A stretch of DNA of 64,000 bases from Flavobacterium palustre. GTDB taxonomy: Bacteria; Bacteroidota; Bacteroidia; Flavobacteriales; Flavobacteriaceae. The notes under the pieces are model-generated. The model was given only the letters and a program-made list of their open reading frames with translations. It searched no databases and was not told the DNA's origin. Positions 49,942-57,687 of this stretch are shown here, in pieces. Each line of letters starts with the position of its first letter. The stretch's first letter is position 1. The position numbers were made by a program, and so were the translations under genes. The stretch covers positions 197,455-261,454 of the forward strand of contig NZ_BMGA01000005.1 of NCBI RefSeq assembly GCF_014639535.1. Reading direction: 5' to 3'.

Positions 49942-51276
49942 TTATTTTATTTCTAAAGCTTCATCCGAAGGACGTCCGTATTTAAAGAAATCATAAATAA
50001 ACAGACTTATTCCGATAGTAAACATCGTGGCACAAATGAGCAGCACAACAAAATGAATACTGATTTCGTTTTGAACCACCATAAATTCCATTTTCATTTT
50101 GCGTTCCAAATAGACCTGAACCACACCGGCAACTCCAAAAGCAGTTGTCATTCCCAGCATTCCAACATTGGATAACCAAAATGCTACATTTCCCTGTGTA
50201 CTATTGTAGCGTTTGCGCCCAGTTAAATTTGGAAGTGCATAACTGATAATTGCCAAAACAATCATCGCATAAGCGCCCCAAAAAGCGTAATGTCCGTGCA
50301 TAGCCGTTACTAATGTTCCGTGTGTATATAAATTAGTTTGAGGTAAAGTATGTGCAAAACCTAATAATCCGGCTCCAATAAATGAAACAATAGAAGCGCC
50401 AATAGTCCAGAATAAAGCTATTTTGTTAGGATGACTTTTTTCTCCTTTGCGGTACATATTCACTGCGAATAATGCCATAGCCAGGAAAGCCAGAGGTTCC
50501 AAAGCAGAGAAAATTCCACCAACAATCAACCAGATTTTATTCACTCCAATATAATAATAGTGATGTCCGGTTCCTAAAACTCCTGAAAGAAAAGTCAAAC
50601 CTACAATTACATACAGCCATTTTTCGATAACCTCTCTGTCAACTCCGGTTAATTTGATTAACAGGAATGAAAGAATCCCTCCCATAATTAACTCCCAAAC
50701 TCCTTCAACCCATAAATGCACTACCCACCAACGGAAGAAAGAATCCGTTACCTGACTGTCAAACCAAATCATTCCCGGGATATATAATAAAGCGGCAAAG
50801 AATAAGCCCATGACCAGCACTATTGCAGTAGTCGTTTTTTGTTTTCCTTTATACAGCGTTCCTATAATTAGAGATAAGAAAAGTAAAACGTTAACTACTA
50901 CTAAATAATCCAGCTCTCTTGGAATCTCCAGAAACTTTCTTCCTTCCCAATGATTTAAGTGAAAACCAATAATGGCTACAACTCCTACCACTGCTAAGGA
51001 AATTAATTGGACATAAGCCCATTTTACGCTTATGAGTTCGTGTTGCGCTTCTTCAGGAATAATGTAATAGGCTGCTCCCATAAAACCCGTTAGCAACCAA
51101 ACTACCAGTAAATTAGTATGTACGGCACGCGCTGTATTAAACGGAATAATATCGTGTAATCCCTGAATTCCTATTCGGTCAAAGCCCATGATAAAGCCAT
51201 AAACAATTTGCAATAAGAACAATAACATACACAATGCAAAAAACCAATAGGCGACTTTTTGTGATTTATATTTCAT
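49942..51276 (-). CDS. norB: Nitric oxide reductase subunit B (cNOR)
   Basis: 444-residue heme-copper oxidase relative that reduces NO to N2O, with about 12 membrane helices. All NorB ligands are in place: His53 and His329 or His327 for hemes, FeB ligands His187, His238, His239, and the glutamates Glu191 and Glu260 that mark NOR instead of oxidases. The lack of an N-terminal extension and the separate NorC make it the cytochrome-c-dependent type. It lies 11 bp after norC. Confidence 0.97.
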   Translation of the reverse strand: MKYKSQKVAYWFFALCMLLFLLQIVYGFIMGFDRIGIQGLHDIIPFNTARAVHTNLLVVWLLTGFMGAAYYIIPEEAQHELISVKWAYVQLISLAVVGVVAIIGFHLNHWEGRKFLEIPRELDYLVVVNVLLFLSLIIGTLYKGKQKTTTAIVLVMGLFFAALLYIPGMIWFDSQVTDSFFRWWVVHLWVEGVWELIMGGILSFLLIKLTGVDREVIEKWLYVIVGLTFLSGVLGTGHHYYYIGVNKIWLIVGGIFSALEPLAFLAMALFAVNMYRKGEKSHPNKIALFWTIGASIVSFIGAGLLGFAHTLPQTNLYTHGTLVTAMHGHYAFWGAYAMIVLAIISYALPNLTGRKRYNSTQGNVAFWLSNVGMLGMTTAFGVAGVVQVYLERKMKMEFMVVQNEISIHFVVLLICATMFTIGISLFIYDFFKYGRPSDEALEIK

Positions 51277-52027: not shown

Positions 52028-52756
52028 ATGGAAACATTAGAAAAAACAACCATCGGAGAATATGTAGCAAAAGATTTCAGAACAGCAGCCATTTTTTCAA
52101 AATACGGCATCGATTTTTGCTGCAAAGGAAACAGAACAATTGAAGAAGCCTGTGACAAAAAAGGACATGATTCAGAAACTATTTTAAATGAAATCAATGC
52201 TGTTTTAAACACTAAAAATGATAACAACATCGATTTTCAATCATGGCCTCTGGATTTATTAGCCGATTATATCGAGAAAACCCATCACCGTTATGTGGAA
52301 GAAAAAACTCAAATCTTACTTCCTTTCTTAGACAAATTGTGCAGAGTACACGGCGCATCTCATCCTGAATTATTTGCCATCAATGAATTGTTCATTGGCT
52401 GCGCAGGCGAGTTGGCACAACACATGAAAAAAGAAGAACTGATTTTATTTCCTTTTATCAAAAAAATGGTCAAAGCAACACTACAGGATGAGTTAGTAGA
52501 ACAACCTCATTTTGGAACTGTCGAAAATCCAATTGCCATGATGATGCACGAACACGATGCCGAAGGAGAGCGTTTTAGAAAAATAGCCGGATTAACCAAT
52601 GATTATACCCCACCGGCAGATGCCTGCAATACTTACAAAGTAACCTTTGCCATGCTTCAGGAATTCGAACAGGATTTACACAAACACATTCACCTGGAAA
52701 ACAACATCTTATTCCCAAAAGCAGTCGAATTAGAGAAAAAAATTTCAGCACAATAA
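52028..52756 (+). CDS. ric: Iron-sulfur cluster repair di-iron protein (Ric/ScdA/YtfE)
   Basis: 242-residue cytoplasmic protein. The N-terminal ScdA_N domain has the redox cysteines YGIDFCCKGNRT; the hemerythrin-like domain carries the di-iron His/Glu ligands (THHRYVEE, HMKKEELILFPF, HEHDAEGERF, HIHLENNILFP). Ric proteins restore Fe-S clusters after NO or oxidative damage, fitting its place beside norCB. It is divergent from norC and may share control. Confidence 0.95.
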   Translation: METLEKTTIGEYVAKDFRTAAIFSKYGIDFCCKGNRTIEEACDKKGHDSETILNEINAVLNTKNDNNIDFQSWPLDLLADYIEKTHHRYVEEKTQILLPFLDKLCRVHGASHPELFAINELFIGCAGELAQHMKKEELILFPFIKKMVKATLQDELVEQPHFGTVENPIAMMMHEHDAEGERFRKIAGLTNDYTPPADACNTYKVTFAMLQEFEQDLHKHIHLENNILFPKAVELEKKISAQ

Positions 52757-52961: not shown

Positions 52962-55052
52962 ATGGAAAAATATGTTATAAAAAGAAACGGCCAATACAAG
53001 CCTTTTGAACCTTTTAAAATAAAAGACGCTATCGAAAAAAGCTTCCTGAGTGTTTCCATGGCAATTGATGAAAACATTTTTGAAAATGTTATCCGGGACT
53101 TAGAGTCTAAGGAAACCTGGGCGGTAGAAGAAATTCAGGATTTAATCGAGAAAAATCTTTTTGAAAAAAAGTATTTTGAAGTCATGCGTTCGTTTATGCT
53201 GTTCCGCCATACCCGAAAACTGCAACGCGAGCATATTGATGGTTTAAACGAAGACACCACTTATGTGGACAGCACTCAGACTATCGAAGAATACATTGAA
53301 CAAACCGATTGGCGCATTAATGCCAATGCCAATACCTCCTACTCTAATGCCGGTTTGGTCAATAATGTAGCGGGAAAAATCATTGCTAATTATTGGCTGG
53401 ATAAAGTGTATACCAAAGAAGAAGGTTATGCCCACCGTAACGGAGATATTCACATTCATGATTTGGATTGCCTGACCGGCTATTGCGCCGGCTGGAGTTT
53501 GCGGGTATTATTGAACGAAGGTTTTAACGGTGTTCGCGGTCGTGTGGAAAGCAAAGCACCGTCGCATTTCAGGGAAGCGCTGGGACAAATGGCAAATTTT
53601 CTTGGGATTTTGCAAAGCGAATGGGCAGGTGCTCAGGCTTTCAGTTCTTTCGATACTTATTTGGCGCCTTATGTTTTCAAAGACAATCTCTCTTTTGATG
53701 ATGTACTGAAAGCGGTTCGCAGTTTTGTTTACAATCTGAATGTTCCGGCGCGTTGGGGACAATCGCCTTTTACCAACATCACTTTGGACTGGGTGGTTCC
53801 TGAAGATTTAAAAACGCAAATTCCGACGAAAAATGATTTACACTTTTTTGAAGGTAACTTCAATTATGATCTTTTAGTCAGAGCCAAAGAACGAGGTGTA
53901 ACTAAATTAACCGATTTGCGTTACGAGCATTTCCAAGCCGAAATGAATCTCATCAACAAAGCTTATTACACCGTAATGACCGAAGGCGATGCCAATGGAC
54001 AGCCTTTTACCTTCCCGATTCCAACGGTAAATATCACCGAAGAATTTGACTGGAACGGAGAAAATACCGATTTACTTTTCGAAAATACAGCTAAAATTGG
54101 TTCTTCTTATTTTCAGAACTTTATCGGGAGCCAATATGTTTTGGATGAAAACGGAAATAAAACAGAAAATCCGAATGCTTATAAACCCAATGCCGTTCGC
54201 TCTATGTGTTGTCGTTTACAATTAGATTTACGCGAATTGTTAAAACGCGGAAACGGTCTTTTTGGAAGTGCCGAAATGACGGGAAGTATTGGTGTTGTGA
54301 CCATCAACATGGCGCGTTTGGGCTATTTGTACAAAGGAAATAAAGCCGAATTATTCGAACAATTAGACCAATTATTATACATTTCAAAATCGACTTTGGA
54401 GAAAAAAAGAATCTTTATTCAGGAAATGTACGACCGTGGTTTGTATCCGTACACCAAGCGTTACCTGCAACATTTCAGAAATCATTTTTCTACCATCGGC
54501 GTAAACGGAATCAACGAAATGATTGTCAATTTTTCCGAAAATCAGGACACAATAACTTCCAACACAGGAATCGCATTAGCTTCTGAAATTCTGGATCATA
54601 TTCGCAACCGAATGAAAGAATTTCAGGAACAAACCGGAAATTTATATAATCTGGAAGCCACGCCAGCCGAAGGAACGACCTATCGTTTTGCCAAAGAAGA
54701 CAAGAAACGCTTTGCCGATATTTATCAGGCGGGACAGGAAGAAAATATTTATTACACTAACAGTTCGCAAATTCCGGTAAATCATACCGAAGATCCATTC
54801 GAAGCCTTGTTTTTACAGGATGAATTACAATGCAAATACACCGGAGGAACGGTTTTACATTTGTATATGAGTGAAAAAATCAGTTCTCCTGAAGCCTGTA
54901 AACAATTTGTAAAAAAAGTGTTGTCTAACTTCAAACTGCCTTACATCACCGTAACGCCGGTATTTAGTGTTTGTCCTGTTCATGGTTATTTGAACGGCGA
55001 GCATGAATATTGCCCGAAATGTGATGATCTTTTATTAATGGAAAAAAGTTAG
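52962..55052 (+). CDS. nrdD: Anaerobic ribonucleotide reductase NrdD, lacking the glycyl-radical end
   Basis: 696-residue class III reductase large subunit that makes dNTPs without oxygen. The ATG at 52962 starts an ATP-cone domain (KYVIKRNGQYKPFEPFKI); the barrel contains SMCCRLQLDL and TGSIGVVTINMARLGY. The C-terminus keeps the zinc motif CPVHGYLNGEHEYCPKC but stops 8 residues later, before the radical glycine domain, which is encoded by a separate ORF at 55142. Without that partner the enzyme would be inactive. Confidence 0.93.
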   Translation: MEKYVIKRNGQYKPFEPFKIKDAIEKSFLSVSMAIDENIFENVIRDLESKETWAVEEIQDLIEKNLFEKKYFEVMRSFMLFRHTRKLQREHIDGLNEDTTYVDSTQTIEEYIEQTDWRINANANTSYSNAGLVNNVAGKIIANYWLDKVYTKEEGYAHRNGDIHIHDLDCLTGYCAGWSLRVLLNEGFNGVRGRVESKAPSHFREALGQMANFLGILQSEWAGAQAFSSFDTYLAPYVFKDNLSFDDVLKAVRSFVYNLNVPARWGQSPFTNITLDWVVPEDLKTQIPTKNDLHFFEGNFNYDLLVRAKERGVTKLTDLRYEHFQAEMNLINKAYYTVMTEGDANGQPFTFPIPTVNITEEFDWNGENTDLLFENTAKIGSSYFQNFIGSQYVLDENGNKTENPNAYKPNAVRSMCCRLQLDLRELLKRGNGLFGSAEMTGSIGVVTINMARLGYLYKGNKAELFEQLDQLLYISKSTLEKKRIFIQEMYDRGLYPYTKRYLQHFRNHFSTIGVNGINEMIVNFSENQDTITSNTGIALASEILDHIRNRMKEFQEQTGNLYNLEATPAEGTTYRFAKEDKKRFADIYQAGQEENIYYTNSSQIPVNHTEDPFEALFLQDELQCKYTGGTVLHLYMSEKISSPEACKQFVKKVLSNFKLPYITVTPVFSVCPVHGYLNGEHEYCPKCDDLLLMEKS

Positions 55053-55141
55053 ATGTTAAGAGTTAAGCGTCAGTAAAATTGGCAACTAACTCCTAACCCT
55101 TAACACATAACTCATAACTCATAACTCATAATCCGAAAAAC
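55053..55141. repeat. Repeat at the NrdD break point
   Basis: 89 bp between the two nrdD pieces: GTTAAGAGTTAAG is mirrored by CTAACCCTTAACACATAAC, followed by three direct copies of CATAACT. It belongs to the word-like intergenic repeat class and is a plausible cause of the split. Confidence 0.7.
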
Positions 55142-55306
55142 ATGAAAACAGCCACGAACCCTATTTTAGAAGAAAAACAGCATTTAAGAACCAAATGCTT
55201 AGTGTACACCCGAGTAATGGGCTATCACCGACCTGTAGAAAGTTTCAACATTGGAAAAAAAGGAGAACACAAACAACGCACTCATTTCAATGAAGGAAAA
55301 TGTTAG
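55142..55306 (+). CDS. nrdD: Stand-alone glycyl-radical domain of NrdD
   Basis: 54-residue ORF beginning MKTATNPILEEKQHLRTKC. The core LVYTRVMGYHRPVESFN matches the C-terminal glycyl-radical segment of NrdD (RVxGYxRPV), with Gly27 the probable radical site, then GKKGEHKQRTHF. It starts 89 bp after the nrdD stop, in a different frame, and overlaps the nrdG start by 17 bases, so it is translated in the same operon. It resembles the way GrcA (YfiD) supplies a spare radical domain to pyruvate formate-lyase. Whether the pair is functional or a decayed gene is open, but the piece is intact and conserved-looking. Confidence 0.85.
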   Translation: MKTATNPILEEKQHLRTKCLVYTRVMGYHRPVESFNIGKKGEHKQRTHFNEGKC

Positions 55307-55979
55307 TACACCTATTTACAGCATAACGCCTTTTACTTTATTAGATTATGCGCATCAATCAGCCTGTATTCTTTGGTTTGCAGGCTGTAATATGCGTTGC
55401 CTTTATTGTTACAATCCCGAAATTGTTCTTGGAAAAGGAAGTATTTCTTTCGAAAAAACGCTTGCTTTTCTTCATTCCCGTAAAAATTTACTCGATGCAG
55501 TTGTTTTTAGCGGAGGCGAATGTTTGTTACACAAAAACATCATTGAACTGATTATCGAAGTCAAAAAAATGGGCTTCCTGGTAAAAATTGACACCAACGG
55601 TTCAAAACCAAATATCCTAAAAACACTGATAGAAAAGCAATTAATTGATTATGTCGCTTTGGATTTTAAAACCCTGCCAGAGCATTTTGAAAAAATAACC
55701 CAATCACTGCTTTTTTCTCCGTTTGAAAAATCCTTACATTTATTGCTGGAAAGCCCGCTTCCGTTTGAAGTACGCACCACTGTTCATTCGGAATTGCTTA
55801 CTGAGAAAGACATCCAACAAATGATTGTTTATTTAGAAAAGAAAAATTACACCGGAAATTATTACATCCAGCATTTTGTAAATGATGTAAAAACTCTGGA
55901 AAAATTAGGGCATTCGTTCCGGAAATTAGACAGTCAACAACTTTCTACACCAAAAATCAACGTCCATTTTAGAGGATAA
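55290..55979 (+). CDS. nrdG: Anaerobic ribonucleotide reductase activating protein
   Basis: 229-residue radical SAM enzyme that makes the glycyl radical on NrdD. The cluster motif is CNMRCLYC (Cys-x3-Cys-x2-Cys), followed by FSGGECLLH and KIDTNGS. The ATG at 55290 overlaps the end of the glycyl-domain ORF; an upstream in-frame ATG at 55251 would overlap much more of it and is less likely. Its substrate glycine is on the small protein just upstream. Confidence 0.92.
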   Translation: MKENVSTPIYSITPFTLLDYAHQSACILWFAGCNMRCLYCYNPEIVLGKGSISFEKTLAFLHSRKNLLDAVVFSGGECLLHKNIIELIIEVKKMGFLVKIDTNGSKPNILKTLIEKQLIDYVALDFKTLPEHFEKITQSLLFSPFEKSLHLLLESPLPFEVRTTVHSELLTEKDIQQMIVYLEKKNYTGNYYIQHFVNDVKTLEKLGHSFRKLDSQQLSTPKINVHFRG

Positions 55980-55981
55980 TT

Positions 55982-57199
55982 ATGCAAAAATCCTGGCTTT
56001 TAATCTGTTTTATCAATTTCTTTATCGCAGCTCTCATGGGATTACTGCTTCGATTGCTGTATGTATTCTCTGTTGAAAGTATCAATTATCAGTTTTTATT
56101 GCACGGACATTCTCATGTTGCCATGTTAGGCTGGGTTTACCTGATGATTTACAGTTTGATTGTTCATTTTTTTATTCCAAAAACAGCACAACAAAAACCC
56201 GTTTACAACCGATTATTCTGGCTAACCGAAATTGCTGTTATCGGTATGATGTTTCGCTTTCCTGTTGAAGGATATGCTTTATTTTCGATTACCTTTTCTA
56301 CACTACATATTTTTTGCAGTTATTATTTCTGCCGATTAGCCTGGAAAGATGCCCGTACTGAGTCGCTGCCTGAAAAACTACTTTTGAGAACGGCTTTATT
56401 TTTTATGATTGTATCAACTTTAGGTGTTTGGTGTTTGGGTCCGGCAGTTGGATTATTAGGTAAAGCCAGTGCTTTTTATCAAATTGCCATTCAGTTTTTC
56501 CTGCATTTCCAATTTAACGGTTGGTTTTTGTTTGCCATTTTAGCCTTATTTTTTAATCAGTTAAAAGGCAATATCAACGAAAAGCAATTTCAACTATTCT
56601 ATAATTTATTGGTTACAGCTACCGTTTTAACTCTTGCTTTGCCGGTGAGTTGGTATCTTCCTAATCCTGCTTTTCATTGGATAAACAGTCTGGGAGTGCT
56701 ATTGCAACTGCTTTCTTTTATCCTTTTTATTCAAATAATCAGACCGCATTTTCAAACTTTCTTTGCCAATTTAAAACCCGTTGAAAAACTGGTTTATGGT
56801 TTTGCCTTAACCTCATTGTTCTTGAAAATTATCATTCAATTAGTGGTTTTAATTCCGGAATTAGCCCAAATTTCACATCAGATTCGGAATTTTGTCATTG
56901 GTTATATCCATCTGACGATGTTAGGGATTATCACTGGTTTTTTGTTTGCTTTTCTGCTAAAAAATTCTTTTTTAAACGACTCAAAAAAAATATCCAATTG
57001 GGAAATAAAACTATTCATTTTTAGCTTTGTACTAACCGAATTGCTGTTATTCGGACAAGGCATTTATCTCTTTTTAGGCCTTGGACAATTTCCATGTTAT
57101 TACCAAAATCTATTTTTATCTAGTATTTTCTTACCTATAGCTATTTTTATGCTTGTTTTAGGGCTTTTTAAAGGCACAATTAAATCACATAAATACTGA
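55982..57199 (+). CDS. His-rich polytopic membrane protein, function unknown
   Basis: 405-residue protein with about 12 membrane helices. Conserved-looking histidines lie in membrane contexts: FLLHGHSHVAMLGWVYLM (residues ~38-55), FFLHFQFNGWFLFAIL and GYIHLTMLGIITGF. The layout recalls heme-copper oxidase subunit I and NnrS proteins, but it is neither a clear NorB nor a clear NnrS. It starts 2 bp after nrdG and precedes an Rrf2 regulator, so it belongs to the NO/anaerobic set. Function cannot be assigned. Confidence 0.75.
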   Translation: MQKSWLLICFINFFIAALMGLLLRLLYVFSVESINYQFLLHGHSHVAMLGWVYLMIYSLIVHFFIPKTAQQKPVYNRLFWLTEIAVIGMMFRFPVEGYALFSITFSTLHIFCSYYFCRLAWKDARTESLPEKLLLRTALFFMIVSTLGVWCLGPAVGLLGKASAFYQIAIQFFLHFQFNGWFLFAILALFFNQLKGNINEKQFQLFYNLLVTATVLTLALPVSWYLPNPAFHWINSLGVLLQLLSFILFIQIIRPHFQTFFANLKPVEKLVYGFALTSLFLKIIIQLVVLIPELAQISHQIRNFVIGYIHLTMLGIITGFLFAFLLKNSFLNDSKKISNWEIKLFIFSFVLTELLLFGQGIYLFLGLGQFPCYYQNLFLSSIFLPIAIFMLVLGLFKGTIKSHKY

Positions 57200-57252: not shown

Positions 57253-57687
57253 ATGTTCTCTAAAACCTGTGAATACGGGATTCGGGCAACTATTTTCATT
57301 GCATCTGAATCCTATCAAAACAATAGAGTCGGACTGAAAGATATTGCCAAAAAGATAGATTCTCCTGAGGCTTTTACTGCCAAGATATTACAGATTTTAT
57401 CCAAAAACAATATTATCAATTCTATCAAAGGTGTGGGCGGTGGCTTTGAGATTCCAAAAGAAAAAATGAGTCAACTCAAATTGTCTCAAATTGTAACGGC
57501 ACTGGAAGGCGATTCTGTTTTTACCGGATGTGGTTTGGGTTTAAGCCATTGTTCTGAGGAACATCCTTGTCCGGTACATGAAAAATTCAAATCGATTAGA
57601 AATGAATTGGCTTTTATGTTAGAAAACACTAATTTGGAGGAATTAGCAATGGGAATTAAATCAGGAGATACTTTTTTAAGGTATTAA
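57253..57687 (+). CDS. Rrf2-family regulator with three cysteines (NsrR/IscR-like)
   Basis: 144-residue transcription factor. The winged helix-turn-helix (MFSKTCEYGIRATIFIA start, GLKDIAKKIDSPEAFTAKILQIL in parts, KGVGGGFEI) is followed by three cysteines at 93, 100 and 106 (CGLGLSHCSEEHPC), the position of the Fe-S ligands of NsrR and IscR. Given the neighbouring NO-related genes, NO sensing as in NsrR is the better guess. The targets are unknown; the gene has its own promoter. Confidence 0.88.
   Translation: MFSKTCEYGIRATIFIASESYQNNRVGLKDIAKKIDSPEAFTAKILQILSKNNIINSIKGVGGGFEIPKEKMSQLKLSQIVTALEGDSVFTGCGLGLSHCSEEHPCPVHEKFKSIRNELAFMLENTNLEELAMGIKSGDTFLRY

Follow-up and report, generated by a model that had tools for sequence, protein, structure and literature searches.

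The anaerobic (class III) ribonucleotide reductase (RNR) NrdD of the PRK08270/NF006126 type carries its glycyl-radical loop in the last about 35 residues of the chain. In another enzyme family, GrcA (YfiD) and T4 Y06I are small glycyl-radical domains that complete a large enzyme, pyruvate formate-lyase (PFL), in trans, as described in PMC8683613. The locus presented here lies in a stretch of 64,000 nucleotides (nt) from Flavobacterium palustre (assembly GCF_014639535.1, contig NZ_BMGA01000005.1, positions 197,455 to 261,454 of the forward strand), further called the window, to which all coordinates refer. It agrees with PRK08270/NF006126-type NrdD in the core fold and the cysteines, in the zinc site, in the activase and in the glycyl-radical motif, but its radical loop is found on a separate protein of 54 residues, encoded by a small open reading frame (ORF). 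We consider it roughly 90% likely that a working class III RNR in two pieces is encoded in the window, because the split is kept in relatives, on plasmids, in phages and in a clade of 35 tree rows, and because the small ORF is under purifying selection. The original prediction had offered this reading next to that of a recent break, and the comparative evidence supports it.

Organization of the split nrdD locus

The nrdD core (52962 to 55052, forward strand) reads as an ORF of 696 residues, running from an ATG at 52962 to a TAG that ends at 55052. It comprises an ATP cone (PF03477, 64.2 bits), a catalytic barrel (PF13597, positions 2–528 of 562, 539.4 bits) and a zinc motif, without a glycyl-radical loop, and matches NF006126 with 1071.8 bits. 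The stop lies nine residues past CPVHGYLNGEHEYCPKC (C671, H674, C684, C687), in agreement with the earlier claim that NrdD ends just past its zinc motif. The feature had been predicted to start at 54981; the zinc motif is indeed located there, but its true start is slightly earlier, as C671-P-V-H674 ... C684-P-K-C687, the last conserved element of the core, spans 54972 to 55022 on the forward strand. The core is followed by a gap of 89 nt (55053 to 55141), in which 6.4 copies of TAACTCA occupy 55087 to 55131 and for which relatives differ in spacing. The stand-alone glycyl-radical domain ORF (55142 to 55306, forward strand, 54 residues) comes next, with the loop TRVMG27YHRPVESFN and the radical Gly27 at 55220 to 55222. 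Its ATG follows the core stop after 89 nt, so that the small ORF and the core are in different frames. The small ORF overlaps by 17 nt with the likely ATG (55290) of an nrdG-type radical S-adenosylmethionine activase (55290 to 55979, forward strand; TIGR02495 NrdG2, 194.2 bits, cut-off 131.15), for which a longer reading from a TTG at 55251 is possible as well. The separation, the difference in frame and the overlap had all been predicted correctly.

The assignment of the 54-residue ORF to the glycyl-radical end of NrdD, also part of the original prediction, is confirmed by two profile families. On Pfam NRDD (562 positions) the core covers 2–528 and the small ORF 532–562 (E 8.2e-7, 28.5 bits, gathering score 26.2). 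On NCBIfam PRK08270, the closest curated family (684 positions), the core covers 3–649 and the small ORF 649–682, so that both pieces meet at 649. According to these profile positions, the chain is cut after the zinc motif and before the glycyl-radical loop. The class III NrdD traits are present, i.e., the NRDD domain, the ATP cone, the barrel and finger-loop cysteines, the zinc ligand motif and the NrdG activase, except that the glycyl-radical motif sits on a separate ORF instead of at the C-terminal end of the core chain. A hidden Markov model (HMM) built from 45 fused phage radical loops only, without rows from the window or from flavobacteria, retrieved the small ORF with an E-value of 4.2e-14 when searched against the window's 1281 stop-to-stop frames, the runner-up having 0.3; its score of 48.6 bits compares with a best score of 11.6 among 20,000 shuffles. 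At E ≤ 1, the small ORF matched PF13597 (NRDD) alone among the Pfam families, the PFL-type glycyl-radical domain not being among its matches, and searched on its own against the PDB it had no match at E ≤ 1.

Residue correspondence points in the same direction. C175 of the core aligns to position 125 of Thermotoga maritima NrdD, a cysteine that is conserved in all known RNRs according to PMC4493059, and Gly27 aligns, through a weak match (16-domain profile, E 0.7), to position 621, given as the radical glycine in the same source. The SMCCR motif and the zinc ligands C671, H674, C684 and C687 are invariant across 8 diverse rows; in 62 rows C175, C416, C417 and the zinc cysteines are invariant, and H674 is conserved in at least 90%. 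The core contains RSMCCR (MCCR at 415–418), in which MCCR replaces SCCR as in NrdDh4, a likeness by motif alone; the NrdDh4 subgroup of RNRdb is defined with this motif in PMC4493059.

Conservation of the split in relatives and on plasmids

In a sample of 150 genomes of the same genus, including that of the window, a core match is present in 52, one being a fragment of 28 residues. The loci compared are labelled with L numbers. Among the 53 same-genus loci examined, the NrdD C-terminus is reached in 51 (one per genome), and all 51 are split; one core match (L028) has an internal TAA. In the 80 nearest named relatives, the best of 473 relatives, the split is found in 79, and the remaining contig ends 67 nt past the core match. 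An unbroken NrdD, which would have spoken for a plain broken gene in the window, was thus not encountered among these near relatives. The proposed comparison with flavobacterial relatives gave the expected picture of a conserved split with varying spacing and frame. In L068, L077 (and L010), the stretch from the core to the radical domain contains a partial tandem duplication of the core C-terminus and the beginning of the small ORF.

Further away, the small-domain profile matches 9 of 299 genomes of the family. Stand-alone frames occur in 5, across three genera; 4 genomes of other genera match weakly (E 4e-4 to 1e-3) inside frames of 622–634 residues, perhaps fused NrdD of another subfamily. 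In 395 genomes of the phylum there are 22 matches, of which 10 are stand-alone (8 in the same genus, 2 in other families of the class), 11 fused in frames of 714–805 residues from three more distant families, and one weak in a frame of 43 residues. Besides these three families, fused PRK08270/NF006126-type NrdD occurs on plasmids of Acidiphilium and Actinomyces. Of 28 plasmid records with a core, 14 loci were examined: these two are fused, Geoalkalibacter is undecided, and 11 are split (Sulfuricurvum, Cupriavidus necator, C. metallidurans, Bradyrhizobium, Thiothrix, Sulfuricystis, Azospira, Cereibacter, Shinella, Paracoccus and Aquabacterium). The split plasmid loci belong to Campylobacterota and Proteobacteria, the distribution in Pseudomonadota being derived from plasmids. 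Together with the other families, they rule out an oddity confined to Flavobacterium. In NCBI, the split pieces are labelled ‘ribonucleoside triphosphate reductase’ and a ‘nrdD’ of 58 or 66 residues; the small gene of C. necator H16 is H16_RS32675. NrdD of Pseudomonas aeruginosa (PA1920) is given as 76 kDa in PMC12284477, and could be of the split or the fused kind alike.

Spacing, selection and the TAACTCA repeat

In 130 split loci (L001–L133) from this and related genomes, some of them represented twice, the distance from the core stop to the nearest ATG of the small ORF ranges from −29 to +287 nt, and each of the three relative frames is represented. Core and small ORF overlap in 60 of the 130, always by 8–29 nt and in the same (+1) frame, leaving neither a gap nor a repeat; where gaps exist, they frequently contain several stops. 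In a set chosen by motif (133 of 137 loci, 104 distinct), substitutions in the small ORF are nearly all synonymous, with proportions of non-synonymous (pN) and synonymous (pS) differences of 0.020 and 0.687, respectively. Purifying selection on the small ORF is thus strong in this sequence comparison. Because of this selection and of the varying spacing and frame, the small ORF reads as a separately translated subunit.

The repeat itself is not restricted to the gap. Allowing up to 2 mismatches and including the array of the window, 19 partly overlapping matches to the repeat were found in the genome, against 0 in a reversed control. Both this occurrence and the overlapping ORFs of relatives without any gap lead us to reject a recent break by TAACTCA insertion. 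This second option of the original prediction, with rescue by translation of the second piece, is not upheld, the split being common across phyla and 60 of the 130 loci having no gap or repeat. The small ORF is neither a pseudogene nor the product of a recent break.

Phage loci with a core and evolution of the split

Phage loci with a core numbered 85, on 84 contigs; 80 are the best of 151 relatives and 5 come from another set. They were sorted automatically into 52 fused, 28 separate and 5 without domain, after which 7 of the 28 (L281, L291, L294, L297, L324, L325, L327), with the domain in a frame of 268–685 residues and a core match that crosses a stop, were re-sorted by hand to fused, and L249 and L260, which are the same contig, were counted once. 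This results in 20 split contigs out of 84, several near-identical, and 59 fused loci. Among the five loci without an adjacent domain, L252 has a separate domain elsewhere on the contig and L259 ends 51 nt past the core match; in L258, L299 and L306 no radical domain was detected. In L249 the domain gene is located downstream, 2 kb away from the core; in L250 it directly precedes the core, and in L305, where the core match also crosses a stop, it lies upstream. Frameshifting or read-through cannot explain these three placements. One fecal phage NrdD (L236:2983-5391) is fused and has a C-terminal glutaredoxin domain, perhaps its own reductant. L250, L251 and L252 have NrdD frames of 1029–1461 residues with long core inserts, possibly inteins.

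In a tree of 41 chosen cores, the window falls inside a starred, all-split clade of 17 rows together with Sulfuricurvum; the partial rows L136, L137 and L235 as well as L236 and L237 of this tree were left out of a second one with 65 rows. The latter is a quick tree of chosen cores including phages, with support from the Shimodaira–Hasegawa-like approximate likelihood ratio test (SH-aLRT) only and with long-branch warnings. It contains a 35-row clade (support 99) of 33 split and 2 fused members (Acidiphilium and Actinomyces), as well as two further phage splits, L302/L304 and L305. Five changes of state result, four of which are forced by starred branches. From these sequences, the history may be read as a single old split that was later followed by two re-fusions, with at least two splits in addition, although the tree alone cannot separate gain from loss.

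Stand-alone radical domains in phages

An IMG/VR scan with the small domain gave 47 contigs, on which the domain is mostly found in stand-alone ORFs. The set was gathered by motif patterns, which makes its motif conservation partly a matter of selection; 29 of the 47 pass Pfam's own cut-off and 46 match at E ≤ 1e-3. An NrdD core, sought on the whole contigs, is absent from 45 of the 47. NrdG was tested on 30 of them: 2 match at E ≤ 1e-3, and the one passing the cut-off is on a contig with a core and an adjacent nrdG. When the fused-type loop was used as the query of a second scan, 68 contigs were retrieved. The loop lies in long frames on 34 of them, and the other 34 have short frames; among these short-frame contigs, 32 lack a core nearby, and none of the 32 has one elsewhere on the contig. 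In total, an NrdD-type radical domain stands alone on 77 phage contigs, some near-identical, in which no core was detected (L185–L231 except L196 and L217, and 32 of L359–L404). All are fragments, so that a core elsewhere in the phage genome is possible. With a stricter motif pattern, 67 of the 77 domains were recovered. In L367, L369, L377, L399 and L403 the domain is preceded in frame by a cysteine-rich, zinc-ribbon-like part. The radical-domain matches of L219–L222 and L228 are broken by an in-frame TGA, which suggests stop-codon recoding.

Ten phage loci were picked from the 47; a peptidoglycan hydrolase gene comes next in seven of them and a capsid gene in one. Other phage copies adjoin capsid or other genes. 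The domain is additionally present on two Allochromatium plasmids, and the A. vinosum plasmid, searched whole, has no NrdD core. A search of 50,697 named phage records with the small ORF of the window gave no match at E ≤ 1e-3, and two phage versions of the domain have weak matches only, many inside annotated NrdD genes. The single clear stand-alone case among named phages is a protein of 144 residues from ANMV-1 virus. By analogy with GrcA and Y06I for PFL, the phage stand-alone domains are candidate spare parts.

Gene neighbourhood and physiological setting

In 64 named loci with full flanks, nrdG is always found beside the split nrdD. Upstream in the window lies a ScdA/YtfE-type (RIC) iron-sulphur repair protein (52028 to 52756, forward strand; ScdA_N and Hemerythrin domains), present in 60 of the 64 loci. 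A COX1-family haem-copper oxidase (49942 to 51276, reverse strand; 35 of 64) is read as NorB-like, which would fit a denitrification setting, and an Rrf2-family regulator is encoded at 57253 to 57687 (forward strand; 36 of 64). After nrdG, a membrane-type protein of 405 residues without a Pfam match (55982 to 57199) is found, also present in 30 of the 64. Similar company surrounds nrdD on pHG1 of C. necator, where PMC2864759 describes nrdDG as essential for complete denitrification. The F. palustre genome encodes one further RNR large chain (PF02867), and class III therefore presumably serves anaerobic growth.

Proposed mechanism and alternative explanations

If both pieces are expressed, the core would contribute the ATP cone, the substrate barrel, the catalytic cysteines (C175, MCCR 415–418) and the zinc site. 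The 54-residue protein, probably translated from its own start codon, is predicted to fold against the core at its zinc end, pushing the Gly27 loop into the active site, after which NrdG would place the radical on Gly27. From there the radical may move to a core cysteine, starting reduction of ribonucleoside triphosphates, under anaerobic and probably nitrate- or nitric oxide (NO)-respiring conditions. The complex model that had been proposed was made as one read-through chain of core and domain, in which the radical domain docks at its position in fused NrdD structures.

A number of elements weigh against a two-piece enzyme. As a single chain with fused homologues in the alignment, the docking model cannot show binding in trans; five of the listed NrdD structures (8p2c, 8p2d, 8p27, 8p28 and 4con) align only up to model residue 665–666, without the radical domain, and an earlier model from a 7-row alignment had a predicted local distance difference test score (pLDDT) of 34.8. 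The motif-based choice of loci biases the ratio of non-synonymous to synonymous substitution rates (dN/dS) low, and the two fused members inside the split clade indicate that the split is not required. The small ORF is the only copy found in its genome, where PFL-type radical domains were not searched. Lastly, 98 of the 150 same-genus genomes show no NrdD. This dispensability in the genus, the stop and repeat between the pieces and the relative with a stop inside the core (L028) are what a decaying NrdD pseudogene with the small ORF as its remnant would leave. Nevertheless, such decay is hardly credible, given the purifying selection, the identical break across phyla and the constant adjacency of nrdG. 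Joining of both pieces into a single chain by programmed frameshifting, stop read-through or ribosome bypassing is very improbable: the uniform (+1) frame of the 60 overlapping loci alone would fit a frameshift, but gaps of up to 287 nt, frequently with several stops and in all three frames, do not, nor do the phage small genes 2 kb away from or upstream of the core. An equally poor chance is given to the small ORF having another task, e.g., as a regulator or in a lysis-linked phage function, with a core that works without glycyl radical. The hydrolase genes next to the phage copies could hint at this; however, the radical loop is conserved residue for residue, nrdG stays adjacent, and other phage copies have different neighbours.

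Within the two-piece reading, the small subunit might be exchangeable, so that after destruction of the radical by O2 or NO the 54-residue piece alone is replaced. O2 cuts glycyl-radical chains at the glycine, and YfiD and Y06I repair PFL in this way according to PMC8683613; the iron-sulphur repair protein of most relatives, the NorB-like and Rrf2 genes of the window and the 77 phage contigs agree with such a role. On the other hand, a permanent heterodimer accounts equally well for the bacterial loci, fused members exist in the split clade, the phage contigs are fragments, and among named phages the domain gives at best weak matches, many annotated as NrdD. An exchangeable subunit is therefore possible but on balance somewhat doubtful. 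A broader proposal, drawn from distribution alone and falling just short of an even chance, is that the domain is an exchangeable trans-acting cofactor of class III RNR. In bacteria, one large clade would mostly use it as a separate subunit, replaceable after loss of the radical to O2 or NO; in phages, the bare module, of split and fused type and without core or activase, would keep the host NrdD making deoxyribonucleoside triphosphates. If true, it is the NrdD-family counterpart of GrcA and Y06I, and phrog_4132 obtains a function.

Comparison with known systems

A literature search yielded split RNRs of class I and II, but no split class III RNR or NrdD-type spare part; subscription papers were mostly outside its reach, which leaves the absence unproven. 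Other RNR catalytic chains likewise consist of two polypeptides, i.e., the class II NrdJa/NrdJb and the class I NrdA of phage Aeh1, as far as described in PMC3267527 and PMC4009431. In the PHROG database, the best match of the window ORF is phrog_4132, as for all six radical-domain ORFs searched; it is listed without function and matched over part of its length only, at about positions 110–163 of 179. We know of no stored-radical residue that is put on a mini-protein by the cuts in NrdJa/NrdJb and Aeh1 NrdA. In C. metallidurans, nrdD and nrdG have been counted as Rmet_5137 and Rmet_5139 (PMC2864759). This locus is split, and the count appears to miss the radical subunit that lies between these two genes. 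The split thus bears on the annotation of such operons, and expression constructs without the small subunit would look inactive. The comparison with GrcA made in the original prediction fits the way in which the part might function; however, GrcA/YfiD and Y06I are spare parts of about 14 kDa in the PFL family, whereas the window ORF, known from its sequence, is an NrdD-family protein of 54 residues, the only copy found, beside a core without its own radical loop. A radical enzyme for DNA precursors would operate with its radical-storing residue on a detachable protein of 54 residues.
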